DNA of 34,074 nucleotides from Pseudomonadota bacterium. GTDB taxonomy: Bacteria > Myxococcota_A > UBA9042. The stretch's first letter is position 1. Every line of letters starts with the position of its first letter. Positions 1-31,200 of this stretch are shown piece by piece. The notes under the pieces were generated by a model that was not told where the DNA came from, did not search any database, and saw only the letters and a list, made by a program, of their open reading frames with translations. The stretch covers positions 1 through 34,074 of the forward strand of contig SXNM01000091.1 in NCBI GenBank assembly GCA_005777155.1, in the 5' to 3' direction. Made by a program: the position numbers and the translations under genes.

Positions 1-488
1 AGCTTGCCGTCGGAGTAGGTGCCTGCGCCGCCTTCGCCAAAGCAGAGGTTGGTCTCAGCGTCGAGATGGCCGTGGACGCGCAGGTCTCGCGCGCGAAGGT
101 TGCGGGTCTCGACCTCGGCGCCGCGCTCAAGGAGCAGGCACTGGACGCCAAAGTCAGCGTACTGCAGGGCCGCAAAGAGCCCCGCCGGGCCGCTGCCGAC
201 GATGATGGGCCGCAGGCCGTGCGCCGGACGGGCGAGGCGCCTCGGCCGCAACAACGGCGGCAGTTCGTCGGGAGGCAGCGCCTGTTGCCGCGTGCCATAG
301 CGGCATCGCAGGACCCACTGCGGGCGACGTCCGGCGCGGGCGTCGAGGCTGCGGCGCTCGACGCGAACAGCGCCGAGATCGCCGACGTCAAGGCCAGCGG
401 CGCGAGCGACCGCCTCGCGGAGTGCCTCATCGTCGGCCAGGGGGGGGGCGTCGCGGGCGATCGGCAGCGCGACCTGGACGGTGGCCAT
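1..488 (-). CDS. FAD-dependent dehydrogenase/oxidoreductase (COG2509-like), truncated at left edge
   Basis: Hand translation of the minus strand from ATG at 488: MATVQVALPIARDAPPLADDEALREAV...AHGLRPIIVGSGPAGLFAALQYADFGVQCLLLERGAEVETRNLRARDLRVHGHLDAETNLCFGEGGAGTYSDGK. It has a Rossmann VGSGPAGLFAA motif and FGEGGAGTYSDGK. The ORF runs off the window, so it is not in the supplied track. Confidence 0.88.
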   Translation of the reverse strand, partial: MATVQVALPIARDAPPLADDEALREAVARAAGLDVGDLGAVRVERRSLDARAGRRPQWVLRCRYGTRQQALPPDELPPLLRPRRLARPAHGLRPIIVGSGPAGLFAALQYADFGVQCLLLERGAEVETRNLRARDLRVHGHLDAETNLCFGEGGAGTYSDGK

Positions 489-1678: not shown

Positions 1679-1805
1679 TGTGCTCCAGGTTGCAGTGCGC
1701 TGGCGACGCGGGCGCCGCTGGAGTATGGAGGCGGCTGACGCCGGGCGGCAAGCCCGGCGCGCCGGGCACATGCCGATCGCGGCCTGTCCCCGGCGGAGGG
1801 GGCGC

Positions 1806-2255: not shown

Positions 2256-2320
2256 GCGGGCGGCGAGAGCGCTGGCTGGGCCCTACGCGGCCGCGGCGCG
2301 GCGAGGCGGAGGAGGCAGAT

Positions 2321-4371: not shown

Positions 4372-4544
4372 GCGCGGACCGCATGCGACCCACTCGACGG
4401 AACACACTGAGGAGCGGCCAGGCCCGTCGCGCTGACGTCGTCCCGACACACCGACCCACAGACGACGCCGCTTGCCCGGCACGACCGCAGGTGGGCGCTG
4501 ACTCAGCCGTCGCCCGCAGCGACACCCGCCGGCGAGCGCCGGGC

Positions 4545-7862: not shown

Positions 7863-10800
7863 CTACTTGCAGAGGATCGTGATGTCGTCGAGGTAGACCT
7901 TGACCGCCTTGATGCCCTGCGTGATCTGCGCCGAGATCAGCGGCCGCATGTAGGCACCGAGCAGCGCGTCGCCGACGGGCTGGCTGACCTTGGCCCAGCC
8001 AGACGACGACTTGCATCCTGTCCAGATGAAGTTGTTGGTCGTCGCCACCGCGCCTGGGGTCGGGGCCTTGGCGCCGGGCGTGTTGATGCCAAAGGCGAAC
8101 GGGGCGGCGGACGGACCAGCAGCACAGACGTCCGGGTCGATGAAGGCGTTGGTCTGCATCACCAAGGTCGCACCGTTGAGCGGTAGCCGCAGCCAGGGCT
8201 CCGACTCCAGGCCCGGGCTGATGAAGGCCTGATCGCCCACCTTGATCGACGTCGGGTTCTGCACCAGCAAGCTCGTGGTGCCCGACGTCTTCTGGTCCTT
8301 GGCCAGCGTGACCTTGAACTTTGAAGGCTGGTTCTTGTCGTCGAAGTTGCCCCAGGTGAACTGGCTGCCCATGGCGTCGAAGTTCTCGGAGTGGCAGAGC
8401 CAGGTGCAGGCGCCGGTGACGCTGATGTCGTCGATCAGGAAGCTGCCCTTGGCCGTCTGTGCAGTGCCCGACTCGACGACGAACTCGATGTCCACGGTCT
8501 TGTTGGCGTACTTGGCGAGGTCGATGGTCTCAAGCTTCCACGCCGTGATGGCGTCGCAGCGCTCGAGCACGACGTCGCCGCCGACGCGCACCAAGAACCT
8601 GTCACCGTCGCTGCAGCCGGCCTGCCCAACCTCCGGGATCTGCAAGCCGAAGGCCAGACGAGCGCCGGTGCCGGGGGTCACGGCCGGGACAGTGATGATC
8701 GTCGTCTCTGCCTTGCCCGACGCCGAAGGCCCAGCGTAGGTCGCGACCATGCTGGCGACGCCGCTGCGCGCCGCCTTGTCGGTGCCGGCCCAGTTGAGGT
8801 AGCCGCTGGCCGTCGCGGTACGGCGCCACGCCGGTGGCAAGCGAGCGTCGAGGCCGAGGGTGGGCGTGCCACTGACGCCGCTTGGCACCTCCACACCTTC
8901 GCCGATGCAGGAGGGACCGCAGGCGCCGCGCAGCGCGATGAAATCGAGCTTCACCTCGGCCTTGGAGGTCTTCTTCTTGAAGGCGGTGACGCGGAACTCC
9001 AGGTCAATCCAGCGCCCGACATGCGCGGCGAGGGAGAGCTTGACCTTGCGTGCGTCATTGCCTTGGTCGCCAGACAGCTTGCCGCAGTGCTGCCAGATCT
9101 GCTTGTTGTCATCGATGTACAGCGCCATGCACTCCGCATCGGCCATGGTCGAGAAGACGCCGAAGCGCAGCACCGGCACCATGTCCGGCGAGACGTACAT
9201 GCGCTTGTGCAGGTAGCGGAACACGGGCAAGGGATCGGTGTCCTTGGCGTCCTCCGCCAGCTTGGCGCCATCCCAGTTCATCAGCAGGTGGCCCTCTTTG
9301 CCGCCGCTCGGGTTAGTGAAGGTCGCGCGCTGGTACACGATGTAGGGGTCGGTGGCGCGCGGGAACCAGTTGGTGGACTCGAACTCGGTGAAGGTGTCGT
9401 TGATGCACAGCGAGCAGCCAGCGATCGGCTGGTGGCCGCACTGGCCCTTGGAACAGGTGTCGAGCGTGCAGTCGTCTTCGTCGTCACAGTCCTTCGCCTT
9501 GACACCGATGCACTTGCCGGCCGAACAGGCGTCCTCTTCGGAGCAGAGGTCGCCGTCCGAGCAGGAGACGGTCACCTTCGGCTGGCAGGTGCCCTCCTTG
9601 GCGTCCTTCGTGCCGACGGCGCACAGGTAGTTGGGCGCGCACGCACCTTTCTCGCCTTCCTTTGCCGCCGGATCGCAGACCAACGTCTCGGCGTAGGGCG
9701 GGTAGCTCTCTTTGTTGGTGACAGAGCAAGTGAACGAGGTGCCGCCCTTGTCTTGGCAGGCGGCGTTGACGCAGGGCCCTTGGAAGTCCTTGCAGGACTC
9801 GAGCGGGCCGGGCTCGCAGAAGCCGAGCTTGCAGGCGTCATTGACCGTGCAGCCGTTCTTGTCGGCGTCGCAGGGCGAGCCCTCCTTGACCGGAGTCGGC
9901 TCACAGAGGAAGGCCGTGCTGCCCTTGTTGGTGCAACCGCCGGTGATGCAAATGCTCTTGGCTTCCTTGCTGCAGTCCGCGGCTTTGCCGGCGGCGCACT
10001 TGCCCTTGGCGCAGACGTCATCGACGGTGCAGCCATCGCCGTCTGCATCGCACTTGGTGCCATCGGCCTTGGGATCGCCCCCGCAGAAGAAGGTGTTGGC
10101 GCCCTTGGTCGAGCAGGTGCCGGTCGCGCACGAGTTGCCCTGAGCTAGGCAGTTGACGGCAGCGCCCGGCAGACATGCGCCGTCAGCGTTGCAGGCGTCG
10201 TCCTTGGTGCAGCCGCTGTCGTCCGAATTACAGGGTGTATTGACCTTGGCTGGCTTGGAGACGCAGTTGCCCTGGCTGGAAGAGATCTTTTCGCAGACGC
10301 CGACGAGGCAGCCCGCGTTGCCATTGAGCTTGCTGCAGTCCATGAGCTTGCCGGGCACGCACTTGCCGGTCTCGCAGTGGTCGTCGAGCGTGCAGCCGTC
10401 GTTGTCGGCTTCGCAGGGCTTGGACTCTTTGACTGGCGCCGCGAGGCACTCAAAGGAGGTGTTGCCGAGGCTCTTGCAGGCGCCGACGGCGCAGGTGCTG
10501 TTCTTCTCGCTGCAATTGACCGGCACGCCTGGCACGCAGAAGCCTTGCACGCAGAGGTCGTTGGTGGTGCAGCCGTTGCCGTCAGCGTTGCAGAGCTTGC
10601 CTTCATTGGTCGGCTTACCGATGCAGCCGCCGAGCCCTCCGTTGACGGCCTTGTCGCAGGTCGGAATGGCGCAGGCGACGTCGATCTCGTTTTTGCAGTC
10701 ATAGGCTCCGAGCCCAGCCTGGCATTTGCCAGACTTGCAGGAGTCGCCCGCCGTGCAGAGCTGACCGTCCTCGCAGGCGGCGCCATCCTTGGCCTGCGTG

Positions 10801-13800
10801 ATCTTGCAGGTGAAGCCGTTGGGTCCGTCCTTGACGCAGGCCGCGAGCTCGCACTCGCCGGCGACGACCGAACAGTCCACTGGGTCGCCGGCCTTGCATG
10901 CGCCCTTTTCGCACTTGTCGTGCGCCGTGCAGCCCGAACCGTCGGCGTCGCAGGTGATGGTGCCGGCCTTGGGTAGCGGCACGCACTCAAAGCCCTTGGG
11001 ATTGTCGGCCTTCTCGACGCACTCGCCGTTGTTGCAGGAGTCCTCGACCACCGAGCAATCCGCGACGCCGCCGGTCTTGCACTGGCCGTTCTGGCAGAAG
11101 TCGCCGACGGTGCAGGCGATGCCATCGCTGCAGGCGGAGCCGTTGACCAACTGCTTGGCCTTGCAGACGCCATCAAGGGTGTCGCAGGTGTTCTTTGTGC
11201 AGGGCGTGTCGACGGTGGTGTCGCAGACCACCTTGGTGTCGTCGAACAGGCAGTAGCCGGCCTGATCGCTCGGCTTCTTCTTCTTGCAGGTGTACTTGCC
11301 GTTGCACGAGTTGTTGTCGTCGTAGATCTTGCAGTCGACGTCGACGCCGTTCTCACAGGCCGGACACTTGTCGTAGTTGCCGCCGGAGCAGAAGCCGCCC
11401 TGGCAGACCGTCTTCTCCGAGCAGGGATCGAGGTCGTCACAGGCGCTGCCCTCTTTGAGGTCGTCGGAGACGCAGCCCTTGAGCTTGTCGCAGGAGTCCT
11501 GGGTGCAGGGGTTGAGGTCGTCGCACTCCTTGGGCTTGCCGACGCACTTGCCCTTGCCGTCGCAGAAGTCGTCGGTGCAGATGTTGTCGTCGGTGCACTG
11601 CGTCTGCGTGCTCTCGTCGGCTAGGTTGACGCAGCCGGTCTTGCTGATGCAGCTGTCGATTGTGCACGGGTTCTTGTCGTCGCAGTTGACGATTTTGGAC
11701 AGGCACTTGTCCTTGTCGCACTGCCCCTTCTCGGTGCACTTGTCGCCGTCTTCGCAGGGCTGGAAGCCGTCGAGGGCGCTGCTGTTGCAGCCCTTGCTCA
11801 GATCGCACTTGTCGAAGGTGCAGTCGTTGCCGTCGTTGCAGGTGTTCTGTTCGTTGACGCAGCCCTTCTTGGGGTCGCAGGAGTCGTTGGTGCAGATATT
11901 GCCGTCATCGCAGGGCAGCTTGATGCCCTGGCAGGCGCTGCCGGAGCACTTGTCGTTTATGGTGCACAGGCTGCCGTCATTGCAGGACTTTCCGTCGTCC
12001 GGCACGATGGTGCAGCCGTTGACCGTCGAGCATGGGCCGGCGACCTTGGTGCAGGGGTTGTCGTCTTCACAGTTCAAGGGGCTGGCCGAACAGTCACCCT
12101 TGATGGTGCAGGCGTCCTTCTCGGTGCATGCGTTGCCGTCGTCGCAAGGCTTATCGGTGGCGGGGCTGACGGCGCAGATGCCCTTGCTGCACGACTCGAT
12201 CGTGCATGGGTTCGCGTCGTCGCAGTCCTTCTTCTTGCCAGCGCACTTGCCGGCCTGGCTGCAGCGATCGATTACGGTGCAGGCGTCGCCGTCATCGCAG
12301 TCCTTGTCGGGCTGCAGGATGTTCTTGCATCCGCCCTTGCCGTCGCAGCCGTCGACCGTGCAGGGGTTGTTGTCGTCGCACTTGACGCCGGCGGCCTTGC
12401 AGACGCCGTCGAGGCACTTGTCGCCCGTCGAGCAGGCATCTCCGTCGTCGCACTTCAGGCTGTTGTCGAGCAACGCCGCGCACTTGCCGCTCTTGCTGTC
12501 ACAGACGTCGATGGTGCAGGGGTTGTCGTCGTCACACTCCAGCTTTTTGCCGGCGCACTTGCCGTCCTTGTCGCACTTGTCGGCCTGGGTACAGATGATG
12601 CCGTCGTTGCAGGGGCCTCCGATACCGACCGGGGCGTTGGCGCAGCCAAAGACTGGATCGCAGACGTCAAAGGTGCATGCGTTATTGTCGTCGCAGGCTT
12701 GCTTGGCGTTGGTCTTGCACTTGCCGCCGATACAGACCTCTTGGATGGTGCAGACGTCGTCATCGATGCAGGTCGTACCTTCTTTCTTGGCGACCTCGGC
12801 GCACTTGCCGGTCTGCGTCCCGCAGGTGTTGTCTTTGCAGGCGTCCTTGCTGGGGTCGCACTTGACCTCGGAGTTCGGCTTCTTCGAGCAGAACTTCGCG
12901 ATGCAGGCGAAGGTGCCGTTGCACAGATTGCCGTCGTCCCACTTGGTGCACTCGCCGTCGGCGCTGCAGCCGCAGTTGTTGACCGGCGCGAAGCAGACGC
13001 CGGCCTTGCAGCTCTCGGTCGGGGTACAAGCGCTGTCGTCGTCGCACTTGTCGCCGTCGGGGCGTGCTTTGTAGATGCAGCCCTTCTGCGCGTCGCAGCT
13101 GTCGTCCGTGCACGGGTTGCCGTCGTTGCAGACCACCGCCGTGCCCTTGCAGAGGCCGTTGGTGTCGCACGAGGTCTGCGTCACGCACTTGTTGCCGCCG
13201 GTGCAAGGCGTGCCAACGGGTTTGGTCTTGACGGAGCACTGACCATTGGCCGGATCGCACAGCGAGGCGCCGCAGGACGGATCGGCGGGCGAGGGACACA
13301 CGACGACGCTCTTGATGTCCGTGTCGCAGACCTTGCCCTTGGCGGTCTGGAGGCACTTCAAGATGCCGGTACAGATGTTTCCATCGTCATACTTGGCGCA
13401 CTCGGTGTCGCTGTCGCAGGTCACGCACGAATTGGTGCCGGTGCAGACGCCACCGCTGCACTGGTCGTTGGTGGTGCAGCCGATGGCGTCGTCGCATGGG
13501 GTGCCGCCGAGCTTGGGCAGGTTCTGGCAGCCCTTGACGGAGTCGCAGGTGTCGGTGGTGCAGCCGTTCTTGTCATCGCATGCCACCACCGTGCCAGCGC
13601 ACTTGCCGCTGGCGCAGGTGTCCTTCTGGGTGCAGGCGTTGCCGTCGCTGCAAGGCCCGTCGAACTGCGTCGACTTGCAGGTGCCGGTCTCCTTATCGCA
13701 GGCATCGTTGGTGCAGGGGTTGTTGTCGTTGCAAGCCTTGCCTTTGCCGACACACTTGCCGGCGACGCAGGCGTCGGCGTCGGTGCATTTGTCTCCGTCA

Positions 13801-15194
13801 TCGCAGGCGCCAGCGTTTTTGGCCACCGCGAAGCAGCCGGTCTGCGGCGCACAGCCGTCGTTGGTGCAGGTGTTGCCGTCGTCGCACGCTTTGCTGACGG
13901 TGTAGTCTTCGCCAGTGCACTTTCCCTTGACGCACGAGTCCTTGGACGTGCATTTGTTTCCGTCGTCGCAGGCCAGGACGTCGGCGACGGCGGTGCTACC
14001 ACAGGTGCCGGTCTTGGGGTCGCAGGCGTCGTCGGTGCAGGCGTTGCCGTCGTTGCACTTCAGCGGTGCGCCGCCGCACTTGCCGCCGGTGCAGACGTCG
14101 TTCTGGGTGCAGGGATCTTCATCGCTGCAAGAGGCGCCATTGCTGGCGTTGCTCTGCGTGATGACCGGCTCGGCGGCGGTGCCGACGCACTTGACCAAGA
14201 TGCAGGCGTTTGCGGGCACTGCCGCCGCCACAGTCGGGCCGTCGCAGGCGCCGCCCTTGCATTCGTCTGGACCGGTACACGAGTTGTCATCGTTGCAGGT
14301 CACGCCGTCCTGGTGGGGCTCCTCGACGCAGCCCTTGGCCTTGTCGCAGCTCGCCTTGGCGCAGCCCGAGGTGGCGGTGCAGGTCACCGCCTCGCCTGAG
14401 ATGCAGGCGCCGACCGCGTCGCATTTGTCGCCGGAGGTGCACTGGTCGCCGTCGTCGCAGGCGGCCTCCTTCTCTAGGGGCGTGTGGACGCACTTCTTGA
14501 CGGCGTCGCACTCGTCGACCGTGCAGCTCTGGTCGTCATCGCAGCTCGTCTTGATGTCGATCTCGGTGCCACCGCAGGAGCCGAAGCCGCAGACGTCGTT
14601 CTCGGTGCAGGCGTTCTTGTCGTCGCAGGGGCGCTTGAGGCCGGCGGGGACGTCGTTGAGGGTGCACTCGCCGAGGTCGTTGCAGGCGGCGTCCTTGCAC
14701 ACGTCATTGTTTTGACAATCGATCTTGCCGTCGCAGGTGCCCTGGGCCGTACACTTGTCGTTGACCGTGCACTTCTTGCCGTCGTCACAGGCGGTGTCGA
14801 CGGTCGCCGGCGCCTTGGCGCAGACGCCTTCCTGACAGATCGCCCGCTCGCACGGGTCCAGCTTGAGGGTCGCACAATCGACCGCCGCGTCGACGCAGGC
14901 GCCGCCGCCGGTGTCGGTGTCGGAGGAGTCGAGGCCGACGCCGGTGTCGCTGCCCGTGAGGCCGTCGCCGCCGTCCGGGTCAGCCGTGTCCTCTGCGGTG
15001 GCGGTGTCGGTCGCTTGTGCAGCCGGATCGGAGCAGGCCGCAATGAGCAGGAGCAGCGCCACCGTCGCAGACCAGCGGCCACGGAGGAGCCCGCGGCCCC
15101 CCACGACGCGGTGATCTACGGTCGCAAAGTGTTCAGGGAACACTTCGTGGCCGCGTCGGGTTGAAGCTGGGGACGCGAGGAGCGTAATGCGCAT
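7863..15194 (-). CDS. Giant (about 2443 aa) cysteine-rich repeat lipoprotein with three C-terminal beta-sandwich-like domains
   Basis: Minus ORF 7863..17102 trimmed to ATG at 15194, preceded by an AGGAAG Shine-Dalgarno; upstream sequence is antisense to the divergent gene. Lipobox ATVALLLLIAAC|SDPAAQ, an Asp/Thr/Ala/Gly linker, then dozens of CDDGNxCTxxDxCxxGxC and CDDxNPCTxDxCDxxxGC units, then a longer repeat class, then tandem domains ending in ..IALRGAC, ..IDDISVTGAC and ..LDDITILCK. Confidence 0.92.
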   Translation of the reverse strand: MRITLLASPASTRRGHEVFPEHFATVDHRVVGGRGLLRGRWSATVALLLLIAACSDPAAQATDTATAEDTADPDGGDGLTGSDTGVGLDSSDTDTGGGACVDAAVDCATLKLDPCERAICQEGVCAKAPATVDTACDDGKKCTVNDKCTAQGTCDGKIDCQNNDVCKDAACNDLGECTLNDVPAGLKRPCDDKNACTENDVCGFGSCGGTEIDIKTSCDDDQSCTVDECDAVKKCVHTPLEKEAACDDGDQCTSGDKCDAVGACISGEAVTCTATSGCAKASCDKAKGCVEEPHQDGVTCNDDNSCTGPDECKGGACDGPTVAAAVPANACILVKCVGTAAEPVITQSNASNGASCSDEDPCTQNDVCTGGKCGGAPLKCNDGNACTDDACDPKTGTCGSTAVADVLACDDGNKCTSKDSCVKGKCTGEDYTVSKACDDGNTCTNDGCAPQTGCFAVAKNAGACDDGDKCTDADACVAGKCVGKGKACNDNNPCTNDACDKETGTCKSTQFDGPCSDGNACTQKDTCASGKCAGTVVACDDKNGCTTDTCDSVKGCQNLPKLGGTPCDDAIGCTTNDQCSGGVCTGTNSCVTCDSDTECAKYDDGNICTGILKCLQTAKGKVCDTDIKSVVVCPSPADPSCGASLCDPANGQCSVKTKPVGTPCTGGNKCVTQTSCDTNGLCKGTAVVCNDGNPCTDDSCDAQKGCIYKARPDGDKCDDDSACTPTESCKAGVCFAPVNNCGCSADGECTKWDDGNLCNGTFACIAKFCSKKPNSEVKCDPSKDACKDNTCGTQTGKCAEVAKKEGTTCIDDDVCTIQEVCIGGKCKTNAKQACDDNNACTFDVCDPVFGCANAPVGIGGPCNDGIICTQADKCDKDGKCAGKKLECDDDNPCTIDVCDSKSGKCAALLDNSLKCDDGDACSTGDKCLDGVCKAAGVKCDDNNPCTVDGCDGKGGCKNILQPDKDCDDGDACTVIDRCSQAGKCAGKKKDCDDANPCTIESCSKGICAVSPATDKPCDDGNACTEKDACTIKGDCSASPLNCEDDNPCTKVAGPCSTVNGCTIVPDDGKSCNDGSLCTINDKCSGSACQGIKLPCDDGNICTNDSCDPKKGCVNEQNTCNDGNDCTFDKCDLSKGCNSSALDGFQPCEDGDKCTEKGQCDKDKCLSKIVNCDDKNPCTIDSCISKTGCVNLADESTQTQCTDDNICTDDFCDGKGKCVGKPKECDDLNPCTQDSCDKLKGCVSDDLKEGSACDDLDPCSEKTVCQGGFCSGGNYDKCPACENGVDVDCKIYDDNNSCNGKYTCKKKKPSDQAGYCLFDDTKVVCDTTVDTPCTKNTCDTLDGVCKAKQLVNGSACSDGIACTVGDFCQNGQCKTGGVADCSVVEDSCNNGECVEKADNPKGFECVPLPKAGTITCDADGSGCTAHDKCEKGACKAGDPVDCSVVAGECELAACVKDGPNGFTCKITQAKDGAACEDGQLCTAGDSCKSGKCQAGLGAYDCKNEIDVACAIPTCDKAVNGGLGGCIGKPTNEGKLCNADGNGCTTNDLCVQGFCVPGVPVNCSEKNSTCAVGACKSLGNTSFECLAAPVKESKPCEADNDGCTLDDHCETGKCVPGKLMDCSKLNGNAGCLVGVCEKISSSQGNCVSKPAKVNTPCNSDDSGCTKDDACNADGACLPGAAVNCLAQGNSCATGTCSTKGANTFFCGGDPKADGTKCDADGDGCTVDDVCAKGKCAAGKAADCSKEAKSICITGGCTNKGSTAFLCEPTPVKEGSPCDADKNGCTVNDACKLGFCEPGPLESCKDFQGPCVNAACQDKGGTSFTCSVTNKESYPPYAETLVCDPAAKEGEKGACAPNYLCAVGTKDAKEGTCQPKVTVSCSDGDLCSEEDACSAGKCIGVKAKDCDDEDDCTLDTCSKGQCGHQPIAGCSLCINDTFTEFESTNWFPRATDPYIVYQRATFTNPSGGKEGHLLMNWDGAKLAEDAKDTDPLPVFRYLHKRMYVSPDMVPVLRFGVFSTMADAECMALYIDDNKQIWQHCGKLSGDQGNDARKVKLSLAAHVGRWIDLEFRVTAFKKKTSKAEVKLDFIALRGACGPSCIGEGVEVPSGVSGTPTLGLDARLPPAWRRTATASGYLNWAGTDKAARSGVASMVATYAGPSASGKAETTIITVPAVTPGTGARLAFGLQIPEVGQAGCSDGDRFLVRVGGDVVLERCDAITAWKLETIDLAKYANKTVDIEFVVESGTAQTAKGSFLIDDISVTGACTWLCHSENFDAMGSQFTWGNFDDKNQPSKFKVTLAKDQKTSGTTSLLVQNPTSIKVGDQAFISPGLESEPWLRLPLNGATLVMQTNAFIDPDVCAAGPSAAPFAFGINTPGAKAPTPGAVATTNNFIWTGCKSSSGWAKVSQPVGDALLGAYMRPLISAQITQGIKAVKVYLDDITILCK
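7866..9420 (-). other. Three tandem C-terminal jelly-roll/ConA-like domains of the giant lipoprotein (about 170 aa each)
   Basis: Each segment begins after a Cys (CINDTFTEFES; CIGEGVEVPSG; CHSENFDAMGS) and ends in a similar strand (LDFIALRGACGPSC, IDDISVTGACTWLC, LDDITILCK). Boundaries are approximate. Confidence 0.6.
9715..10970 (-). other. Second repeat class in the giant lipoprotein: about seven units of about 60 aa
   Basis: Consensus CDADGxGCTxxDxCxxGxCxxGxxxxCSxxxxxCxxGxCxxxGxxxFxCxxxPxKxGxx, e.g. CDADGDGCTVDDVCAKGKCAAGKAADCSKEAKSICITGGCTNKGSTAFLCEPTPVKEGSP. It is clearly longer than the upstream units. Confidence 0.75.
15127..15145. repeat. Perfect inverted repeat AAGTGTTC-AGG-GAACACTT
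   Basis: 8-bp perfect arms with a 3-nt spacer, inside the first codons (EVFPEHF) of the giant lipoprotein gene. Confidence 0.8.
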
Positions 15195-15476: not shown

Positions 15477-17390
15477 ATGGGCGACATGGCGACCAACGCT
15501 CCTTCGACGCACAGCGAGGCGATGCGACCCGCGCGGTACGTGCGTGCGCGGCCTGCCGCTGCGGCCTGCGCGCTTTGGGCGCTGTTGGTGGCAGGCGCGT
15601 GCTCGGAGGACGCCCCCGACGCCTCTGCGGGTCAGGGCGCTGGCGGCGGCCTCTTCGACGGCATCGGCGGCGTGGAGGATACCAGCCCGCATTTTGATAT
15701 CCACGGCGACGACAGCGCGACGGCGGACGCCGAGCCCGAGCCTGGGACGTTCGGCGCGCCGTGCAAGGGCAACGGCGACTGCGACTCCGGCCTGTGCATT
15801 CAGGCGGCCGACGGCATGGTCTGCACCGAGCTGTGCGTCGAGTCCTGCCAGCCGGGCTGGTCCTGCGCCGCCAAGATCGCCAATGGCACCGACCAGGTGT
15901 ATTTGTGTGTGCCTTTGTTCGTGTCGCTCTGCGACCCCTGCAACGACAACCTCCAGTGCAACGAGGAAGGCAAGAGCGGCAACGTCTGCATCAGCTTCGG
16001 CGCGGCGGGCTCGTTCTGCGGCGTAAAATGCGATGAGGTCAACCCCGAATGTCCAGGTGGCTACAGCTGCCAGGCCGTCGTCGACAAGAAGTCGGGCTTG
16101 ACCTCGCACCAATGCGTACGGACCACGGGCCTGTGCACCTGCAGCCGGCGGGCGGTGGAGTTGGCGCTGGAGACGACCTGCACCAGCAACAACCTCTACG
16201 GCAGCTGCGTCGGGTCGCGCCACTGCACGGCGTCCGGCTTGTCGCAGTGCGACGCCCTGGTCCCAGCGGAGGAGGCCTGCAACGCGGTGGATGATGACTG
16301 CAATGGCAAGACCGACGACTTCGCCGCAGGCATCGCCAAGTGCAACAAGACCAACCAGTTCGGTAGCTGCCCGGGCAAGGTGCTGGCCTGCGAGGACGGC
16401 AAGGCGATCTGCGACGCCCTCGACGCCAAGCCTGAGCAGTGCAACGGCATCGACGACAACTGCGACGGCAAGACGGACGAGGGCATCTGCAACGACGGCC
16501 AAGACTGCACCATCGACACCTGCGACACCGCCGGCGGCTGCAAGCATAAGGGCGTCACCGGCACCAAGTGCAGCGACGACGGCGACCCTTGCACCAATGA
16601 CATATGCAACGAGGACGGCCAATGCGCTCACAAGCCCATCGCCGGCATGGCTTGCGACGACGGCTCGATCTGCACGCAGACCGACAAGTGCGTCGCTGGC
16701 GCCTGCGTCGGCGGCAACGCGCTGGGCTGCGACGACAAGGACCCTTGCACCAGCGACGCTTGCGACCCCTTCACCGGTTGCACCCACAGCGCGGCGTCCG
16801 ATGCGATTTGCACCGATGATGGCCTGCCGTGCACGCTGGACCAGTGCCAAGACGGCAAGTGTGTGCACAAGCCGAATGAGGGCGGCGCCTGCACGGACGA
16901 CGGCAAGCCCTGCACCCTCGACACCTGCGCCAACGGCATCTGCACCCATCCGCTGAGCTCGGGCGCCTGCGACGACGGCAACCCGTGCACCGAAAACGAC
17001 GTCTGCTCTGGCGGCGCTTGCCAGGCCGGCACGACCAAGGCCTGCAACGACGGCCAGCAGTGCACTCAGGACAGCTGCGACCCGAAGAAAGGGTGCCAGC
17101 ACAGCACGCAGGCCATGGATTACAAGCCCTGCGCCGCCAGCTCCGGCGAGTGCCCGGTGGGCTTCTGCAACGGCGGGTTCTGCGCCTCCAAAGTCGATCA
17201 GCCCTGCGAGACCAAGGTCAAGGTCGATCTCTGCACTTCGGTCAAGGCGCTTGGGACCTGCACCTCGGCGGGCAAGTGCGTCGCCAAGTCCTTCCCGGAG
17301 ACCGTCAAGTGCGACAACTGCAAGTCTGCCTGCGTCAAATGCGGCTTGTTCCAGGTCTGCCTCGACCTGTTCTTCGCCACAAATCCTTAG
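15477..17390 (+). CDS. Cysteine-rich repeat lipoprotein with MopE-type putative metal-binding motifs
   Basis: ATG at 15477 after an AGGAGG. Lipobox ALWALLVAGAC|SEDAPD, acidic linker. Two CNxxDDxCxGKTDx motifs (16278-16319 and 16440-16484) of the MopE/putative metal-binding type, then CDDGxxCT.. repeats matching the divergent giant protein (e.g. DSCDPKKGCQHS vs DSCDPKKGCVNE). Confidence 0.9.
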   Translation: MGDMATNAPSTHSEAMRPARYVRARPAAAACALWALLVAGACSEDAPDASAGQGAGGGLFDGIGGVEDTSPHFDIHGDDSATADAEPEPGTFGAPCKGNGDCDSGLCIQAADGMVCTELCVESCQPGWSCAAKIANGTDQVYLCVPLFVSLCDPCNDNLQCNEEGKSGNVCISFGAAGSFCGVKCDEVNPECPGGYSCQAVVDKKSGLTSHQCVRTTGLCTCSRRAVELALETTCTSNNLYGSCVGSRHCTASGLSQCDALVPAEEACNAVDDDCNGKTDDFAAGIAKCNKTNQFGSCPGKVLACEDGKAICDALDAKPEQCNGIDDNCDGKTDEGICNDGQDCTIDTCDTAGGCKHKGVTGTKCSDDGDPCTNDICNEDGQCAHKPIAGMACDDGSICTQTDKCVAGACVGGNALGCDDKDPCTSDACDPFTGCTHSAASDAICTDDGLPCTLDQCQDGKCVHKPNEGGACTDDGKPCTLDTCANGICTHPLSSGACDDGNPCTENDVCSGGACQAGTTKACNDGQQCTQDSCDPKKGCQHSTQAMDYKPCAASSGECPVGFCNGGFCASKVDQPCETKVKVDLCTSVKALGTCTSAGKCVAKSFPETVKCDNCKSACVKCGLFQVCLDLFFATNP

Positions 17391-17558: not shown

Positions 17559-20500
17559 GTGGACCGCGGCGACGGAGCGACGGCGCAGGTGTGGAGCAGA
17601 GCCCGGCGCGTCTTGCGCTTGGCGCTGCGCTGGTCGGCTGCGAGCGCCTATCAGCTGACGGTCCGCGCCGCGGTGTCGCTGACGACGGCGCTCTTGTTCG
17701 TCTATTTCACGGTGAATTCGCCGTCGGTGGTGGCGCGGCTGGGCGACCTGCTCGCCGACGCCTTGCCTGGCAAGGTGGCGATCGCTGGGCTGCGGTGGGG
17801 GCCTTCGCCGGGGACGCTGACGGTGTCGGGGCTGACGCTGCGCGACCCGGACGGCGTGCTGGTGCTGCAGGCGGCGCGGCTGGACGTCGAGGTGGCTTGG
17901 CTGGCGCTGGTGCAGGACCTGCTCGACGGCGACGACGCGCTGCAAGTCCGCGTGGTCGAGGTCGCGTTGCAGGGGCTGGAGCTGCGCCTGGAGGAGACGG
18001 CCGGCGGCGAGCTGCGGCTGATGCGGGCGCTGGTGCGACCACCGCCGCCCGACGAGCCCCCTTCGACGCTGCGGCTCGGACTCGAGTTCGACGCCATCCA
18101 TCTGCGGGACTCGACCTTCGCCATGGACTTGGCGGGCAGCAAGGTCGACATCGAGGGCCTGGGCGCCGACGTCGAGCTCACTGTGGACGTCACGCCGACA
18201 GCGACCGCGGTGGACTGGACCCTGCGCGGGGTGAAGGCTCGTCATGCCGGCATCGAGATCGACGGCTTCGCCGCGGCCGGGCTGGCGCAGCTGCCGAGCG
18301 GAGCGCTAGCGGTAGAGAGCGCGTCGGGCGACCTCGCGCAGGCGCGGCTACGGGCCGTGCGCATCAGCGGCGACGCGACGCGCCTGGAGCGCGGCGACAT
18401 CGACGTGCGCTGGGCGCCGGCGCTCTCGGTGGCGGTGCGGCGGGCGGCGCTGACCACCAGGAGCCCGGAAGAGCCTTTCCTGCGGCCTTTCCTCGGCGAC
18501 CTCTTTGCCGCCGAGGCGCGCTATGTCGGCGACGTCGAGGTTGACGAGGCGGGCCGGACGGTGGCGCGGGGCGAGGTCGAGGGCAAGGGGCGCATGGTGG
18601 GCTTCGACGTCGGCAGCGTGACGGCGAGGATCGACTTACAGACGCCGACGGCAGCCGGAGATCCGGTCGACGTCGACGTGGCCGACCTCGCGATCATGGC
18701 CTTCGGCGGTGAGCTGCGCAGCGAACGCCTGCACTACCAGCTCGGCAAGGATGGCTGGCAGCGCGTCACCGCCAAGCTGGGGCTGCGGCAGGTCTCAAGC
18801 GCTGAGGCCCTGACGGCGCCCGGCGTCGGCATGACGCTGGCCGCGGCGCTGCCGATCGCGGCGACGCTCGACGGCGACTGTGCGGTCGACGTGCGCATGC
18901 GAGGCGGTGGCGACGCTCCCCTTGAGCTCTACGTTCGCACCGACCTCGACCTGACGATCGGCCGCGACTCGCGCGCCAGCTGGCTGCCGGCGTCGCTGCC
19001 GACCCTCTACCTGCGCGGCGGCGTCGACACCACGATGGCGCCGAGCGCCGACCCGGCGCAGCCGCTGACCATCGGCCTGCGCGGCCTGATCTTGTCTGAC
19101 CGCCGCGATGACCGGGGGCCGAGCCTGACTTCGAGCGCGACCTTTGCGCAGCTCGACGGCGCGCTCGACCTTGCGGCCAAGACCATGGACCTGCGCGGCG
19201 GGCTGCAGCTGCCGGCGCTCGGCGCGATGCTGCGCGGCTTTGGCGTCGCGGGCGTTGACGGGGCCTTGGCGGTGCAAGATCTCAAGGTGCAAGGGCCGCT
19301 GCTGGCGCCGACGGTGCAGGCAGAGATCCGCGGTCGGGGCCTGCGCGCCGCCGGCGTCGCCATCGAGTCGGTGCGGGCCGAATTGGCGCTTGCCTCTGGC
19401 GCCTTGGCGTTGCGTTCGGTGTCGGCGCAGCTGGCGCAGGGTGCGATCACTGGGGGGTTGACGCTCGACCTGTATCGCCGCGACCTGACCGAGCTGCGCA
19501 AGCCGATGGTGCTTCATGGCCGGAAGGTGGCGCTGCACGACGTCGAGCTCAGCAAGCTGCTCGGCGACCTTGGCGTGCCTGGCGTCGCCGGCCGGGCCCG
19601 AATCGATGGACTCGACTTCACGATGGCGCTGGACCGCCCGGTCGAGACCTTTCGCGGCGACGGCCACGTGCACGTCGAGGGGCTCGCCGCGGCCGACGAG
19701 CGCTTCGAGCGGCTCGACGCCGATGTCCGGATTGGCGGCGGCGCGGTGGACGTCAGCGGGCTGGAGTTGATCGTGCCGCCTCTGTTCCGGCTCGGCCAGC
19801 CTGCGTTGGGCGAGCGCGGGCTGATCTCGGGGTCGCTGCGCTACCGCATGGCGGCGGGGGCTTGGTCGGCGGACCTGCAGGTGCCGGCCCTGCGATTTGA
19901 CCAGTTTGGCGCGGTCCGGAAGCTTGGGATGCCGCTGCGCGGTAGCCTGCAGGGCCGTGTGGTGGCCAGCGGCGACGGACGCGACCTGCAGATCGACGGC
20001 GCCTTGACTCGCGTGGCGCTGCGCGAGCTGGCTTGGGACGCCATCGTGATGGGTGACGCGGAGTTGCAGATCGGCAAGGCGGCGGGTCAGCCGGCGATGC
20101 TGGCGAGCGACGCGTTCTTCCCGCGCTTCAAGCTGCTCGCTGGGTCGGCGGTCCACTTTCGCAAGCTGGTGCCGGAGGTGGTGTCGCTGCAGCTCAACGC
20201 CGACCGCTTCGATCCCTACGTGCTGTTGGCGCTACCACCGATGGATGGGCTGAAGCTGTTCGTGGGCGGTCGCGCAGAGTTTCGGCTCGACTTTCGGCCT
20301 GGGCAGCCTGTGTTCATGGTCGACGCCCACCTACAGCCGGGCGAGCTCGAGGTCGAGATGCAGAACGGCATCGACCCGATCCGCAATCGCATGCCAGCCA
20401 CTGTGCGGGTGCTGCCGGACCGATTGGAGTTTGACAGCACCGAGCTGGTGATCAGCGGCAACGCGGTCGAGCTGTGTGGCGCGGTCCTCTACCCCAACGC

Positions 20501-22067
20501 CGAGCGCGGCGAGCCGTTGCTGCTGCGGCTCTACCTCGCGGGCTCGCTTGATGTCCCGCGTTTTGGCGCCTTGGCAGAGAGCATGGCGAACCTCGATCTC
20601 GGCTTCGACATCGGCCAAGATCCGCAGGTGCAGGCCGACCCGGGCTCGCAGTGCCTGCAAGGTAGGCTGTCGCGGATCGGCAAGATGCGCATCGCCGGGC
20701 CTCTGGACGCCCTGCAGCCACGAGGCCAGCTGGTGCTGCGGGCGTCGCGCCTGTTGCCGCGCGGCTATGGCCGAGAGATCGCCCTGGCGGCGGGCGCGCG
20801 GCTGCACTTGGCGACGGACGACGCCGGTCGGCTGCGCGTCGAGATCCCGGACAAGTCGCCGCTAGAAGGCCGCGTCGACGACGGCCGCTTTCGCGTCCAT
20901 GGCAGCGCCGCCCTCAGCGGCTACCAGGCCGAGGAGATCGACCTGCGCGTCTCCGGCGTCGACCTCGCCTACGTCGCGCCCAAGGAGTATTCGGTTGTGG
21001 TCTCGCCGACCCTGCGCTTCCGCGGCGAGCGCCTGGGCGACGCGGCGCGGCGCAAGATGATGCTCAGCGGCGATGTCGTCGTCACCGAGGGCGCCTACTC
21101 GCGCTCGTTCGATCTGGTGGGTCGAGTCATCGGCGGCGTCCGCGGCCGCGAGCTCGACACCTACAGCGCGCCGCTACTCGAGCGCATGCCGTGGCTGGGG
21201 GCGATCGGCCTCGCGGTGAGCGTACGCGGTCAGAATTTTGAGGTGTTATCGCGCTTCCCGATCGGGCGGGCCGACCTGGAGTTGGGCTTTGACATGAAGG
21301 TCCGCGGCACGTTCGCTGACCCCGAGCTCTATGGCCGGGTCGAGGTGCTGCCCGGGAGCCTGCTCACCTACGACCTGTTTCGGCGTGAATTCGAGGTCAC
21401 AGAGGGGTCCATCGACTTCAATGGCGCCATCGACCGCGCCTGGCTGAGCATGAACGCCCGGACCGAGATCGCGCTCGACGACGCCGGCACCGGCGCTGCG
21501 ACCAGCGTGACCTCGAGCGTCGGACCCAACTTGTCGAGCAGCGGCACGCGGCAGCTCAACAAGGTGGTGGTGACGGTTGGGCTGAGTGGCCCGCTCGATG
21601 ACGCGCGGCGGCTCAACATCCAGCTGAGTTCCACGCCGAGCTATGGCCCTGAGGACATCCAGACCCTTATCGCCTTTGGCCAGCTGCGGACGGGTGTCGG
21701 CTCCGGAGCGCTCGGCAGCCGCACCAACGTCGGCTTCATCACCGATGACATCGCCGGCGCGGTGTCCAAGGCGCTGCTGTCGACCTTTGTCGACTCGGTG
21801 ACCTTTGGCATCGCGACCGCCGGCGGCGTCAACGTGCGTGTGGTGACCAGCCTCGGCAAGTCGATTCAGCTGACGGGCGAGTACTATGGCGAGTTCGCCG
21901 GCATCAGCACGGGCAGCGCCACGCTGAGTATTCGGCTCGGGGAGCGCCTCTCGCTCGATGGGCTGCTGCGCATCAACCAGGCCAGCGCCGCGGCGAGCAC
22001 CGGCCAGCAGGTCAACGTCAATGAGGCCAAGCTGCGCTTTCGCGTGCCGCTGACGGAGACGTGGTGA
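17559..22067 (+). CDS. TamB-like (DUF490/AsmA-like) translocation and assembly module protein
   Basis: GTG at 17559. N-terminal anchor AVSLTTALLFVYFTVNSPSVVARLGDLLADALPGKVAIAGLRWG..., long repetitive beta-rich body, C-terminus ELYGRVEVLPGSLLTYDLFRREFEVTEGSIDFNGAIDRAWLSMNARTEI...SYGPEDIQTLIAFGQ...VNVNEAKLRFRVPLTETW, typical of TamB C-terminal domains. Confidence 0.9.
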   Translation: MDRGDGATAQVWSRARRVLRLALRWSAASAYQLTVRAAVSLTTALLFVYFTVNSPSVVARLGDLLADALPGKVAIAGLRWGPSPGTLTVSGLTLRDPDGVLVLQAARLDVEVAWLALVQDLLDGDDALQVRVVEVALQGLELRLEETAGGELRLMRALVRPPPPDEPPSTLRLGLEFDAIHLRDSTFAMDLAGSKVDIEGLGADVELTVDVTPTATAVDWTLRGVKARHAGIEIDGFAAAGLAQLPSGALAVESASGDLAQARLRAVRISGDATRLERGDIDVRWAPALSVAVRRAALTTRSPEEPFLRPFLGDLFAAEARYVGDVEVDEAGRTVARGEVEGKGRMVGFDVGSVTARIDLQTPTAAGDPVDVDVADLAIMAFGGELRSERLHYQLGKDGWQRVTAKLGLRQVSSAEALTAPGVGMTLAAALPIAATLDGDCAVDVRMRGGGDAPLELYVRTDLDLTIGRDSRASWLPASLPTLYLRGGVDTTMAPSADPAQPLTIGLRGLILSDRRDDRGPSLTSSATFAQLDGALDLAAKTMDLRGGLQLPALGAMLRGFGVAGVDGALAVQDLKVQGPLLAPTVQAEIRGRGLRAAGVAIESVRAELALASGALALRSVSAQLAQGAITGGLTLDLYRRDLTELRKPMVLHGRKVALHDVELSKLLGDLGVPGVAGRARIDGLDFTMALDRPVETFRGDGHVHVEGLAAADERFERLDADVRIGGGAVDVSGLELIVPPLFRLGQPALGERGLISGSLRYRMAAGAWSADLQVPALRFDQFGAVRKLGMPLRGSLQGRVVASGDGRDLQIDGALTRVALRELAWDAIVMGDAELQIGKAAGQPAMLASDAFFPRFKLLAGSAVHFRKLVPEVVSLQLNADRFDPYVLLALPPMDGLKLFVGGRAEFRLDFRPGQPVFMVDAHLQPGELEVEMQNGIDPIRNRMPATVRVLPDRLEFDSTELVISGNAVELCGAVLYPNAERGEPLLLRLYLAGSLDVPRFGALAESMANLDLGFDIGQDPQVQADPGSQCLQGRLSRIGKMRIAGPLDALQPRGQLVLRASRLLPRGYGREIALAAGARLHLATDDAGRLRVEIPDKSPLEGRVDDGRFRVHGSAALSGYQAEEIDLRVSGVDLAYVAPKEYSVVVSPTLRFRGERLGDAARRKMMLSGDVVVTEGAYSRSFDLVGRVIGGVRGRELDTYSAPLLERMPWLGAIGLAVSVRGQNFEVLSRFPIGRADLELGFDMKVRGTFADPELYGRVEVLPGSLLTYDLFRREFEVTEGSIDFNGAIDRAWLSMNARTEIALDDAGTGAATSVTSSVGPNLSSSGTRQLNKVVVTVGLSGPLDDARRLNIQLSSTPSYGPEDIQTLIAFGQLRTGVGSGALGSRTNVGFITDDIAGAVSKALLSTFVDSVTFGIATAGGVNVRVVTSLGKSIQLTGEYYGEFAGISTGSATLSIRLGERLSLDGLLRINQASAAASTGQQVNVNEAKLRFRVPLTETW

Positions 22068-25000
22068 GCGTCGTCACGCCAGCAGGACGCGGAGGTGAAG
22101 GCGCCCGTCAGCGGCGGTCGCGGCGATTGGCGGTCGCCGGCGCGATTATGGCGCTGCTGCTGTGGGGACATCCGTCGGCGCAGGCGCAGCCGGCCGAGCA
22201 GACGCAACCGGCGCCGACGAGCGCCGACGGTCGCCGCGCGATAGAGGCTGCGAGGCCGCAGGAGTCGGACGCTCCGGCGCCACTGCCGGTGGCGGCGACG
22301 GCGAGCGGGGCCGTGGGCGGCGGCGCGGCCACACCAGGGGGAGAGGCGACAGCGCCGCCAGGGCCGGCGGGCGTGGACGCCATCGAGGCGGAGCTGGCGT
22401 CGACGCCTGGCCTCGCCAATGCCGAGCGCAATTGCCTGGAGCGGCCGATCGCGGTGGCGGAGCTGCTCGACTGCCTCGGCACCCGCTGCCAGGACCGCGA
22501 GGAGCGTCGAAAGCTCTTATCCCTCGCCGATCTGCAGCTGGGCGCCGTGCTCAGCCGTGGGGCGCTCCTTCGAGCGGTCCGCCGCATCACCGAGACCGGA
22601 TTCGTGCGGATCGCCGCTGTCGATTGCACGGGCGCGGTCACCGGGGCACGGATTCGACTGCGCGTGATCGGCAACAAGGTGATTCGCGGCATCCGGTTCG
22701 AGGGCAACCGCGAGATCTTCACCGCGGAGTTGCAGGCGCGACTGCTCTTCCAGGCCGGCGATGTGCTCGACGCCGAGACTGACGCCGGCCGATTGCAGCT
22801 GCAGCGCCAGACTGCGGCCTTCGAGACCCTCTACCAGCGCTCCGGCTTCGAGCAGGCGCGGATCGAGATCCGCGCCGAGCCCGTCGGAATCGGCCAGGTT
22901 GGGGTGCGGGTCCTCATCAATGAGGGTCAACGCGACCGCGTCACGGGCCTCATCACCGTGCTTCAAGACCCGCACCGTCCAAACGAACGGGAGCGCGCCG
23001 CCGGCCTGCAGTGCCCGCAGGTGCGCGAGCGGGCGCTGCTGCAGGCCAGCGACCTCGTCGACGTCGACGTCTTCACGCGCAGGGCCGAGGTCCGCGCACG
23101 AAGCAAGATCCGCGAGCACTTGCGTGCGCTCGGCTACCACAACCCCCGCGTGTCGATCGACCACGATCGGCGCGACGGGGCGGTGCGCCTCGACATCCGG
23201 CTCGGCCGCTGCTCGCTGGTTCAGACGCTCAGCCGCGAGTCGGCAGAGCAGGCGACCCGTGACGCGGCGCTGCGCCCGGTCCAGGACCCGACGCTGGAGG
23301 CCGTGCTGCCCTTCGTGGAGAGCGGCGTCTTCGACCTCTCGGAGGCCGAACGTGGCCGCCGCGAGCTGCGCGCCGCGCTGGAGAACCGCGGCTACCTCTT
23401 CGCAGAGGTCGAGTTCGACTACCGCGAGACGCCGCGCAGCTGGGGCAGTCGAGTGGCCTCTGCCATCACCTATCGCATCACCACCCGCTACCTGGCGCAG
23501 GTCCGCGGCCTACATTTCTGCGACGCTGCACAGGTCGAGGAGGCGGAGGCCGCGACGGCGGCAGACGGCTGCGCCCGTGTGGCCGGTCGCTCGATGGCGC
23601 TGCCCGCCGGCGAGCTCGAAAAGGCGATCGCCACTCGACCTTACGACGTGCTCGGGGAGGGCGGCTACCTGTCGACAGCGCAGATGTTCGGCGATCTAGA
23701 GGCGCTGCGGCGCCACTACCGCGACTCCGGGTACTTCGAGTTTCACTATGCCCTGGTCGCCCCACCTGGCAGCGCGGGGCTGCAGCGGCGACGACGGCGA
23801 ACCGGCAGTGAGGAGGTCATCGAATACCTGCTCGGCGACCGCGGCTTCCGCGTTCGGCGCCCGATCGGCGAGCACTTCATCTACGTCGACGTGCCCCTCA
23901 TCGAAGGCCGGCGGTCGCGCTTCGACGCCGTCTCCATCCAGGGCGCGTCGCCGTCGCGCTTGCCGCTGGTGCGGTCGCTGCTGGACCTGCGCAGCGGCGG
24001 CGTCGCCAGCGCGACCCTGCTGCGCGAGGCGCTGCAGCGGGTGCAAGACGACTACCAGAACCTGGGCTATTTCCAGTCCAAGGTCGAGGCGTTCTGCAGC
24101 ACGCGCGGCCGAGGGCTTTCGGCTGACGCCGCCGAAGGGATGCAGCCCTGCACACCGGAGCGCATCCTCGCCGAGACGATCGACCTCGAGGTGCGAGTCC
24201 ATGAGGGCCCGCGGGTGCGGATGGGCGAGATCTTCGTCGCGGGAAATTTCTATACGCGGGCGTCACTGCTGCTGCGCGACATGCCTCTGCCGGGCAGCGA
24301 CTTCTCGGCGCAGCGCCTGTTCGAATCGCTGCGGGCGCTGCGCAACCTCGGCCTGTTCCGCTCTGTGTCGTTCCAGTACATCGGCCGCGACGAGGTGCCG
24401 GCGCGCCAAGACATCGCCGTCGTCATCCATGTCGTGGAGGACGAGACGCAGCACTTCGAGGCCTCGGCCGGCTTCCAGACCATCAACGTCAACCGCGCCG
24501 AGCGTGCAGGGCTGCCCGGCCTCTTCGACGCCATGGAGCACCTGACCTCGGCCGGCAGTCGGCTCGGCTCGGGCTACGGGCAGTTTCTCGGCCTGAACCT
24601 GTCAAACCTGCTGTTCACCCTCGAAGGCAAGTGGATCGAGCGCAACCTCGACCTGTTTGGCGGCGGTAAAGAGCTGCGCCTTGAGGGCCGCGTCGGCGTG
24701 ACACCCGACATCACCGAGGGTCCGGCGCTCGGCCTGCTGGCGCTGGTCTACCAGGACAGGCGGCTGCTCGGCTCCGAGGTCTCGCTGCGCTTCTTTCCGG
24801 GCTACGTGTCGCGTGACTTTGCGACCACGGCGATCGACGTCGACAAGGCTGGCACAGCCGCCGAGGTCGCGCGGGCGTTCGGCAAGCTCGGCGTCTCGGC
24901 GGGCCTCGACTTCGGCGTTGTGCGCACCCGCGACATCGTCGCCCAGGGGGAGTTCGCGACCTGGACCGACCTCCAATTCCAAGGGAAGCTGCTGCTGCGT

Positions 25001-25702
25001 GGCGCCTACGACGGCCTCGACTCGCCGCTGAACCCGACGACGGGTCTGTTTGGCAACCTCAGCGTCGCGCTGATCAACGCCATGGTGACGGACACCGCCG
25101 GGACGCAGTCGGTGCGCGGCACGTTCGTCAAGCTCGAGGGGCAGACCAAGGCGCTCGTGACGTTCCGCGAGACGCTAACGCTGGCGGCGATGGCGCGGGC
25201 CGGTTGGGCCGCTGGGTTCGAATCGAGCGCCTATGGTCGGCTGCCCGACAATGAGCGCTACCGCTTGGGCGGCCAGCTCGGCGTGCGCGGCTACGCCGAC
25301 AACGGCATCTTGCAGTATGGAGGCGATGGCAAGCCGCTGGCGCGCTGTCTGGGCCTTGGCGACAAGCTGACCTGCGCCAACGAGGCGGTGTTCGACAGCG
25401 GCAACGTGGTCGTCAACGGGACGCTGGAGGCGCGCTTCCCGCTGGTCCGCAGCTTGGACGTCTGGACTGGCGTGTTCTGGGACTGGGGCGGCATCAGCGA
25501 GACCCTTGGCGCGCTGTCGGCGGCCTCGATTCGCCACAGCGTCGGCCTCGGCGTGCGTTGGCTGTTGGCTGGGCAGATCCCCGTCCGCGCTGACTATGGC
25601 GTCGCCGTAAACCGCCGGTGCGCTACGCTGCCGGCGGCGGACGGGAGCTGCACGACAGAGCCGCGCGGCCACCTGCACCTCGGCCTGCTCTACTCCTTCT
25701 AG
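22064..25702 (+). CDS. Omp85-family outer membrane protein (BamA/TamA-like) with multiple POTRA-like modules
   Basis: GTG at 22064 (or 22061) overlaps the TamB stop (GTGA). Signal peptide AGAIMALLLWGHPSAQAQ. Repeated POTRA-like segments (IRGIRFEGNREIFTAELQ..., FVAGNFYTRASLLLRDMPLPGSDFSAQRLFESLRALRNLGLFRSVSFQYI). Barrel with the QLGVRGYADNG signature and terminal ...HLHLGLLYSF. Confidence 0.93.
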   Translation: MSVVTPAGRGGEGARQRRSRRLAVAGAIMALLLWGHPSAQAQPAEQTQPAPTSADGRRAIEAARPQESDAPAPLPVAATASGAVGGGAATPGGEATAPPGPAGVDAIEAELASTPGLANAERNCLERPIAVAELLDCLGTRCQDREERRKLLSLADLQLGAVLSRGALLRAVRRITETGFVRIAAVDCTGAVTGARIRLRVIGNKVIRGIRFEGNREIFTAELQARLLFQAGDVLDAETDAGRLQLQRQTAAFETLYQRSGFEQARIEIRAEPVGIGQVGVRVLINEGQRDRVTGLITVLQDPHRPNERERAAGLQCPQVRERALLQASDLVDVDVFTRRAEVRARSKIREHLRALGYHNPRVSIDHDRRDGAVRLDIRLGRCSLVQTLSRESAEQATRDAALRPVQDPTLEAVLPFVESGVFDLSEAERGRRELRAALENRGYLFAEVEFDYRETPRSWGSRVASAITYRITTRYLAQVRGLHFCDAAQVEEAEAATAADGCARVAGRSMALPAGELEKAIATRPYDVLGEGGYLSTAQMFGDLEALRRHYRDSGYFEFHYALVAPPGSAGLQRRRRRTGSEEVIEYLLGDRGFRVRRPIGEHFIYVDVPLIEGRRSRFDAVSIQGASPSRLPLVRSLLDLRSGGVASATLLREALQRVQDDYQNLGYFQSKVEAFCSTRGRGLSADAAEGMQPCTPERILAETIDLEVRVHEGPRVRMGEIFVAGNFYTRASLLLRDMPLPGSDFSAQRLFESLRALRNLGLFRSVSFQYIGRDEVPARQDIAVVIHVVEDETQHFEASAGFQTINVNRAERAGLPGLFDAMEHLTSAGSRLGSGYGQFLGLNLSNLLFTLEGKWIERNLDLFGGGKELRLEGRVGVTPDITEGPALGLLALVYQDRRLLGSEVSLRFFPGYVSRDFATTAIDVDKAGTAAEVARAFGKLGVSAGLDFGVVRTRDIVAQGEFATWTDLQFQGKLLLRGAYDGLDSPLNPTTGLFGNLSVALINAMVTDTAGTQSVRGTFVKLEGQTKALVTFRETLTLAAMARAGWAAGFESSAYGRLPDNERYRLGGQLGVRGYADNGILQYGGDGKPLARCLGLGDKLTCANEAVFDSGNVVVNGTLEARFPLVRSLDVWTGVFWDWGGISETLGALSAASIRHSVGLGVRWLLAGQIPVRADYGVAVNRRCATLPAADGSCTTEPRGHLHLGLLYSF

Positions 25703-30777: not shown

Positions 30778-31200
30778 CCGAGCCTCCGTCCGGGCATACC
30801 GGCGCCGGGAGGATAGCAGGTGAGCGAGGCGGCGGAAGGGGGCGGGGCGTAGGGTCGCCGGGCCCTGCGCTTGCGGAAGTTGCGCTGTGTTGACGCGCTG
30901 AGTCGCGCATCGCGTCGAGGCGCCGACACGGTTTGACCGCCCAACGTCTGACCGGCCAAAGTCAGCGCGCCTGCCGTGGACCTTTGCGTCGCGACGCCGC
31001 GGGCCGAGCGCGGCGCTGAGGCGACGGCGACGGCGACGACGTCGCGGGCGGCGCCTGCGAGGGCGACCTGGGCCTCCATCGTACCGACGGTGCCCGCCTT
31101 TCACGGTGGCCGCGGCGCGCGGTGACCGGGCTGCCTTCACGACACGGTCGCAGCTGAGCCGGCGGCGAAGTCGACCCCGCCGGCGCGCTGCCGGCTCGGC

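Follow-up and report, generated by a model that had tools for sequence, protein, structure and literature searches.

A giant Cys-rich lipoprotein with a constant 64-module array, encoded beside a TAM locus in a family of Myxococcota

The window analysed here is the whole stretch of 34,074 nucleotides from contig SXNM01000091.1 (assembly GCA_005777155.1), part of a 4.7 Mb genome that is 59% complete. It carries two divergent genes for Cys-rich lipoproteins, one giant and one shorter (P0002), with a tamB gene and a tamA-like gene following the latter (Table 1). A preliminary description of this DNA had placed a gene of 7.3 kb, with no strand given, at exactly the coordinates of the giant gene, and the open reading frame and its translation bear this out. 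As in known TAM loci, tamB stands in a row with an Omp85 gene bearing POTRA domains, and the window yielded matches to PF04357 (1.1e-20), POTRA (1.3e-35) and Omp85 (5.9e-24). Unlike known TAM loci, that of the present family has one or two Cys-rich lipoproteins next to it, and no description of a TAM locus with such neighbours was found in the literature searched. In five near-complete relatives a different Omp85 gene, of about 815 codons and with a better score, lies elsewhere and presumably encodes BamA; thus, the gene at the locus is a second Omp85. The window also contains a gene for an FG-GAP / UnbV_ASPIC protein (4383-6752, plus strand), which is convergent with the giant gene and has a homolog downstream of the giant in genome G006 (L087), and a gene for an M1 aminopeptidase fused to HEAT repeats (27997-31209, minus strand).

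Table 1. Features of the giant lipoprotein gene and the adjoining locus (window coordinates).
Feature	Coordinates	Strand	Basis
Giant Cys-rich lipoprotein gene, 2,443 aa, stop codon included	7863..15194	-	ORF and translation; 17 full-length orthologs
Signal peptide region ending in lipobox LLIAA-C54	15033..15194	-	Sequence; lipobox-like motif in 17/17 orthologs
D/T-rich tether, probably disordered, residues 55-99 (45 residues)	14898..15032	-	Conservation and composition
First array, mostly alternating A and B, residues 100-589	13428..14897	-	Cys-spacing parse; Dicty_CTDC
D module 1 (six Cys) and B8 module, residues 590-653	13236..13427	-	Cys-spacing parse
D module 2 and B-type module, residues 741-798	12801..12974	-	Cys-spacing parse
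Six modules A-B-A-B-A-B (modelled stretch), residues 862-1016	12147..12611	-	AlphaFold model
D module 3 and B8 module, residues 1277-1344	11163..11366	-	Cys-spacing parse
Eight A-E pairs, second main repeat class, residues 1355-1823	9726..11132	-	Cys-spacing parse; Cys conservation
C-terminal domain 1, MAM-like	8907..9416	-	Profile-profile match to domain 2, 99.8% probability
C-terminal domain 2, MAM / choice-of-anchor-J-like	8394..8921	-	Ortholog profile matches
C-terminal domain 3, divergent, same fold	7866..8408	-	Profile-profile match to domain 1, 95.7%
P0002, second Cys-rich lipoprotein, 637 aa, divergent from giant	15477..17390	+	Lipobox; Cys-rich head and Dicty_CTDC modules
tamB (PF04357, DUF748), exact start uncertain	17559..22067	+	Pfam; synteny
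tamA-like Omp85, several POTRA domains	22061..25702	+	Pfam

The ATG of the giant gene lies at 15194 and its stop codon at 7865-7863. Upstream of the ATG the frame stays open on the same strand to 17102, antisense to the neighbouring gene; the mechanically defined reading frame therefore does not fix the start, for which the ATG at 15194 and a GTG further in, at 15104, are the candidates. The GTG may be the true start, in which case the protein would begin with a canonical short lipoprotein signal ending in LLIAAC and the mature protein would be unchanged. A hydrophobic segment and the lipobox-like motif LIAAC, read by eye, precede Cys54, and the recurrence of such a motif in the orthologs agrees with the lipidation claimed in the preliminary description. 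The tether that follows shares only 22% identity with the orthologs, compared with about 49% in the array, and its D/T-rich composition is common to all 17 of them. The protein as a whole contains 275 Cys (11.3% of residues).

The Cys-rich array comprises residues 100-1926 (1,827 residues) and was parsed by Cys spacing into 64 modules, two irregular groups being merged into B. The modules are (i) 28 A modules, mostly C-6-C-6-C-5-C (range C-6/7-C-6-C-5/6-C), (ii) 22 B modules, mostly C-6-C-5-C-6-C (last gap 5 to 7), (iii) eight E modules, mostly C-7-C-5-C-10-C (range C-7..9-C-5-C-10..12-C), and (iv) three D modules with six Cys each, together with three further irregular modules. Up to residue 1344 A and B modules alternate, with a few B-B neighbours and three D+B insertions between them, and over residues 1355-1823 A modules alternate with E. 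The preliminary description had reported dozens of Cys/Asp units as most of the chain, an alternation of CDDGNxCTxxDxC with CDDxNPCTxDxC, and at least three repeat classes. The parse confirms the abundance of units, the alternating motifs correspond to the A and B modules, and the classes now recognised are A, B, E and the six-Cys D. Instances of the motif C.[DE]...C[TSN] number 41 in the array, whereas 2,000 residue shuffles gave 1.2 on average and never more than 7. Acidic residues occupy fixed positions (+2 and +10 in A, +2 and +9 in B), and the net charge of the array is about -120 over its 1,827 residues; calcium binding is possible in view of these conserved acidic positions.

The likeness to Dicty_CTDC repeats, also proposed at the outset, is borne out by Pfam PF00526, which matches the giant in 17 separate stretches (120.3 bits against a cut-off of 27, E 2.6e-35). 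Up to E = 1 only PF00526 and InhA-like_MAM appear among the Pfam matches of the giant, with no EGF match, and the MopE copper-binding profile (PF11617) is likewise absent from them. TRF found no long DNA-level tandem repeat in the giant gene, which indicates that the module duplications are old; a recent tandem duplication as the origin of the array was rejected on the same result.

An AlphaFold2 model of the six adjacent modules at residues 862-1016, based on an alignment of 77 rows from the window and named contigs, reached a mean pLDDT of 95.6 and a pTM of 0.65. In this model each of the six A/B modules forms two short strands, that is, one β-hairpin, so the repeated fold with regular Cys placement anticipated by the preliminary description was recovered for this stretch. 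A model of two A-E pairs, built from four window rows only, reached a pLDDT of 52.6, too low to be informative. Two disulfides in each hairpin would give a thin, protease-resistant rod. Foldseek returned no significant PDB match to the A/B repeat model; its first four matches were chains of the Entamoeba Gal/GalNAc lectin (E 0.017-0.036, not significant). The best of them, the Entamoeba histolytica Gal/GalNAc lectin heavy chain (PDB 9gjb, probability 0.80), was matched at E 0.017 and TM 0.26 with no sequence relation found, and is an analogy only. A search of a viral fold library with the repeat model gave nothing significant, and a sequence search for solved-structure relatives of the repeats gave none up to E = 10.

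The chain ends in three tandem MAM-like domains of about 170 aa each, which detect one another in profile comparison with probabilities of 99.8%, 95.7% and 85.8%. C-terminal domains had been predicted earlier, and profile matches of the orthologs now indicate globular domains of the MAM type. InhA-like_MAM was matched by 13 of the 17 orthologs (best 6.5e-6) and MAM by 8 of the 17, both at E up to 0.1, and choice_anch_J by 11 of the 17 (best 2.4e-10). The giant itself scores below the curated cut-offs for such domains (MAM 22.2 bits, Pfam gathering cut-off 26.4) and differs from MAM-type proteins in that three copies follow one another on a Cys-rich array. A sequence search of solved structures with the C-terminus gave only a chance-level match to InhA.

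Orthologs were sought with the C-terminus of the giant and then with its 17-row profile. Strong matches (E below 1e-130) were found in 20 of the 22 genomes of the family, the window included, and 30 other genomes of the class held no ortholog, only partial matches to the MAM part with E no better than 6e-17. Seventeen of the 20 copies are full-length (2,422-2,532 codons, the window protein counted from its ATG); contig ends truncate the remaining three. There is also a second group, of shorter paralogs with the same C-terminus, which measure about 950-1,300 codons in most cases; a member in the window's own genome (G000:C396:5258-6784) has the same three-domain C-terminus in an open frame of 978 codons.

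The constancy of the array is the most telling result of this analysis. In long repeat proteins, copy number is usually quick to change. Among the 17 full-length copies, array length varies only between 1,826 and 1,853 aa, no indel exceeds 11 aa and no module has been gained or lost. Each copy has 274-285 Cys. Of the 275 in the window protein, 263 never vary among the 17 copies, although identity to that protein is 40-52% (about 42%), and these include all 83 Cys of residues 1300-1929. When each module was compared with all modules of the same class in an ortholog, the best match fell at the corresponding position for 47-52 of 56 modules in near relatives and for 25-35 of 56 in distant relatives, far above the roughly 3 expected by chance. 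In contrast, P0002 gains and loses modules in the same genomes. Since module number is constant, selection probably acts to keep rod length; and since all 64 modules persist in different genera at an identity of about 42%, array length or module order must be important.

The surroundings of the gene are also retained in most relatives with a contig long enough to show them. In 12 relatives P0002 and tamB lie beside the giant, most of them also with tamA within the fetched stretch, and in a thirteenth P0002 adjoins the giant before the contig ends. P0002 orthologs are 51-62% identical over the aligned part, and P0002 is flipped onto the strand of the giant in four genomes (G013, G010, G005, G016). 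The P0002-tamB-tamA set lies about 20 kb from the giant on the same contig in G011 and on a different contig in G009; in G004 the set is present and the giant was not found, and in G006 and G014 the set lies on a contig without the giant, which reaches a contig edge in both. No tamB was found near P0002-like proteins fetched from five genomes of the class outside the family.

The giant is one of many proteins of its genome with this repeat. A first look gave 1,498 Dicty_CTDC candidates there, as a loose count; the best 150 of these were scored, all passed, and they fall in at least about 71 ORFs, so that the idea of the giant as the unique repeat protein of its genome was rejected. All 36 genomes compared in the class have Dicty_CTDC matches over the cut-off, with first-look candidates, again loose counts, numbering 586-3,081 per genome in the family and 109-1,925 in the rest of the class. 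In the remainder of the phylum, genomes with no candidates or a few predominate (highest first look 284), and 14 well-known control genomes have no candidates. Thus, the Dicty_CTDC-type repeat saturates this class of Myxococcota. Other Cys-rich elements are also expanded: a Cys/Asp motif of the MopE type has 115 matches in the window's genome, and the Cys-rich head of the P0002 type (about 250 aa) has 45 matches there and 141 in G028.

The probable explanation, favoured with some reserve, is that the giant is an outer-membrane-anchored, disulfide-stapled rod of fixed length that carries MAM-like adhesion domains and is probably handled by the neighbouring TAM. We infer export because the protein has a lipobox, nearly all of its Cys occur in fours and no intracellular domain was recognised. 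The giant would be lipid-anchored in the outer membrane at Cys54; after the short flexible tether, 64 β-hairpin modules stapled by disulfides would form a long thin rod exposed at the surface, and the three β-sandwich domains at its far end would probably bind other cells, matrix or glycans. The lipobox, the module structure, the A/B hairpin fold, the MAM-like C-terminus, the conservation of the orthologs and the synteny all support this explanation, and an N-terminal anchor, a fixed number of modules and C-terminal MAM-like domains fit a display or adhesion stalk. The Entamoeba adhesin chains, as best though not significant structural neighbours, point the same way. Counting against the explanation are the low confidence of the A-E model, the MAM score of the window protein below the gathering cut-off, and the relatives in which the giant and the P0002-tamB-tamA set lie apart (G009, G011) or the giant was not found (G004). 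The interpretation put forward in the preliminary description is partly supported. The locus, judged from gene order, suggests that TamA/TamB may help to assemble or display the giant, probably together with P0002. A bolder proposal, that the family has a dedicated TamA/TamB pathway for giant disulfide-rod lipoproteins at its surface and that the 64-module array is a molecular ruler setting the distance of the MAM-like domains from the cell, is tentative and rather doubtful.

The kept linkage to tamB and tamA, whose proteins span the periplasm, and the strict conservation of array length would also suit a spacer within the envelope, either as a TamA/TamB accessory inside the outer membrane or as a link from the outer membrane to the wall, its fixed length matching the envelope. 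We consider this unlikely: 64 extended two-disulfide modules would probably exceed the periplasm, MAM-type domains are typical of extracellular adhesion, and a spacer role is improbable for every one of the dozens of further repeat proteins that the genome encodes. Less likely again is that the giant and P0002 are merely substrates or adaptors of TAM and that the array itself takes no part in display. Such a role would account for the synteny of the four genes and for the fact that in the family tamB-tamA stay beside P0002 even where the giant lies elsewhere, but synteny is not interaction, and P0002-type proteins occur in tens of copies per genome, which cannot all adjoin tamB.

Storage of calcium or another metal by the acidic CDDGN loops, of soft metals by the Cys, or a redox buffer, is improbable. 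The net negative charge with acidic residues at fixed positions is compatible with it, as is the MopE copper-binding profile match of another Cys/Asp motif in the same genome, but the giant itself has no MopE match, its Cys stand in fours at fixed positions that better fit disulfides, and storage needs no fixed length. A fast-evolving protein of variable copy number, serving antigenic or recognition variation, is scarcely credible despite the tandem array of related modules and the whole-module differences of P0002 between relatives, and is largely refuted by the lack of a DNA-level repeat, the position-specific modules and the unchanged module number of the 17 orthologs, on which copy-number variation of the array was rejected.

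The favoured adhesion rod has partial counterparts among known systems. The Dicty_CTDC proteins of the Dictyostelium extracellular matrix (PF00526, ecmA/ecmB-type) share by profile the same Cys/Asp module of about 24 residues; the giant, in contrast, is bacterial and lipid-anchored, with 64 modules of several spacing classes and a MAM-like C-terminus. The dictyostelid examples named are matrix proteins, at about 6-17 Dicty_CTDC proteins per genome (PMC4931340, Table 4), whereas genomes of the present class each hold hundreds to thousands of candidate modules. The profiles matched by the C-terminal domains in most orthologs, MAM, InhA-like MAM and choice-of-anchor-J, are likewise established types. 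In Myxococcus xanthus, TraA serves kin recognition as a receptor at the cell surface and contains Cys-rich repeats (PMC3325183). It shares with the giant the phylum, the Cys-rich repeats and a proposed role at the cell surface. TraA carries a MYXO-CTERM sorting domain and PA14, whereas the giant has a lipobox and gave no MYXO-CTERM or PA14 match in NCBIfam and Pfam scans.

The module and the domain type are therefore already known, and the literature searched yielded no bacterial lipoprotein family with a frozen array of 64 modules and a linked TAM locus in a class saturated with this repeat; nor was there literature on bacterial Dicty_CTDC proteins, which does not prove that there is none. 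A module whose name comes from slime-mould matrix proteins is thus abundant throughout an entire class of bacteria, and the link of repeat proteins to an outer-membrane assembly locus makes the surface delivery of giant folded lipoproteins testable. Still longer open frames with Dicty_CTDC occur in other families of the class (G031:C5, 5,296 codons; G023:C8, 4,672; G048:C232, 3,763). In addition, a metagenome-assembled contig titled Klebsiella pneumoniae (L133, CAMDBH010000060.1) carries a repeat protein of the Myxococcota type, and its label or binning is probably wrong.
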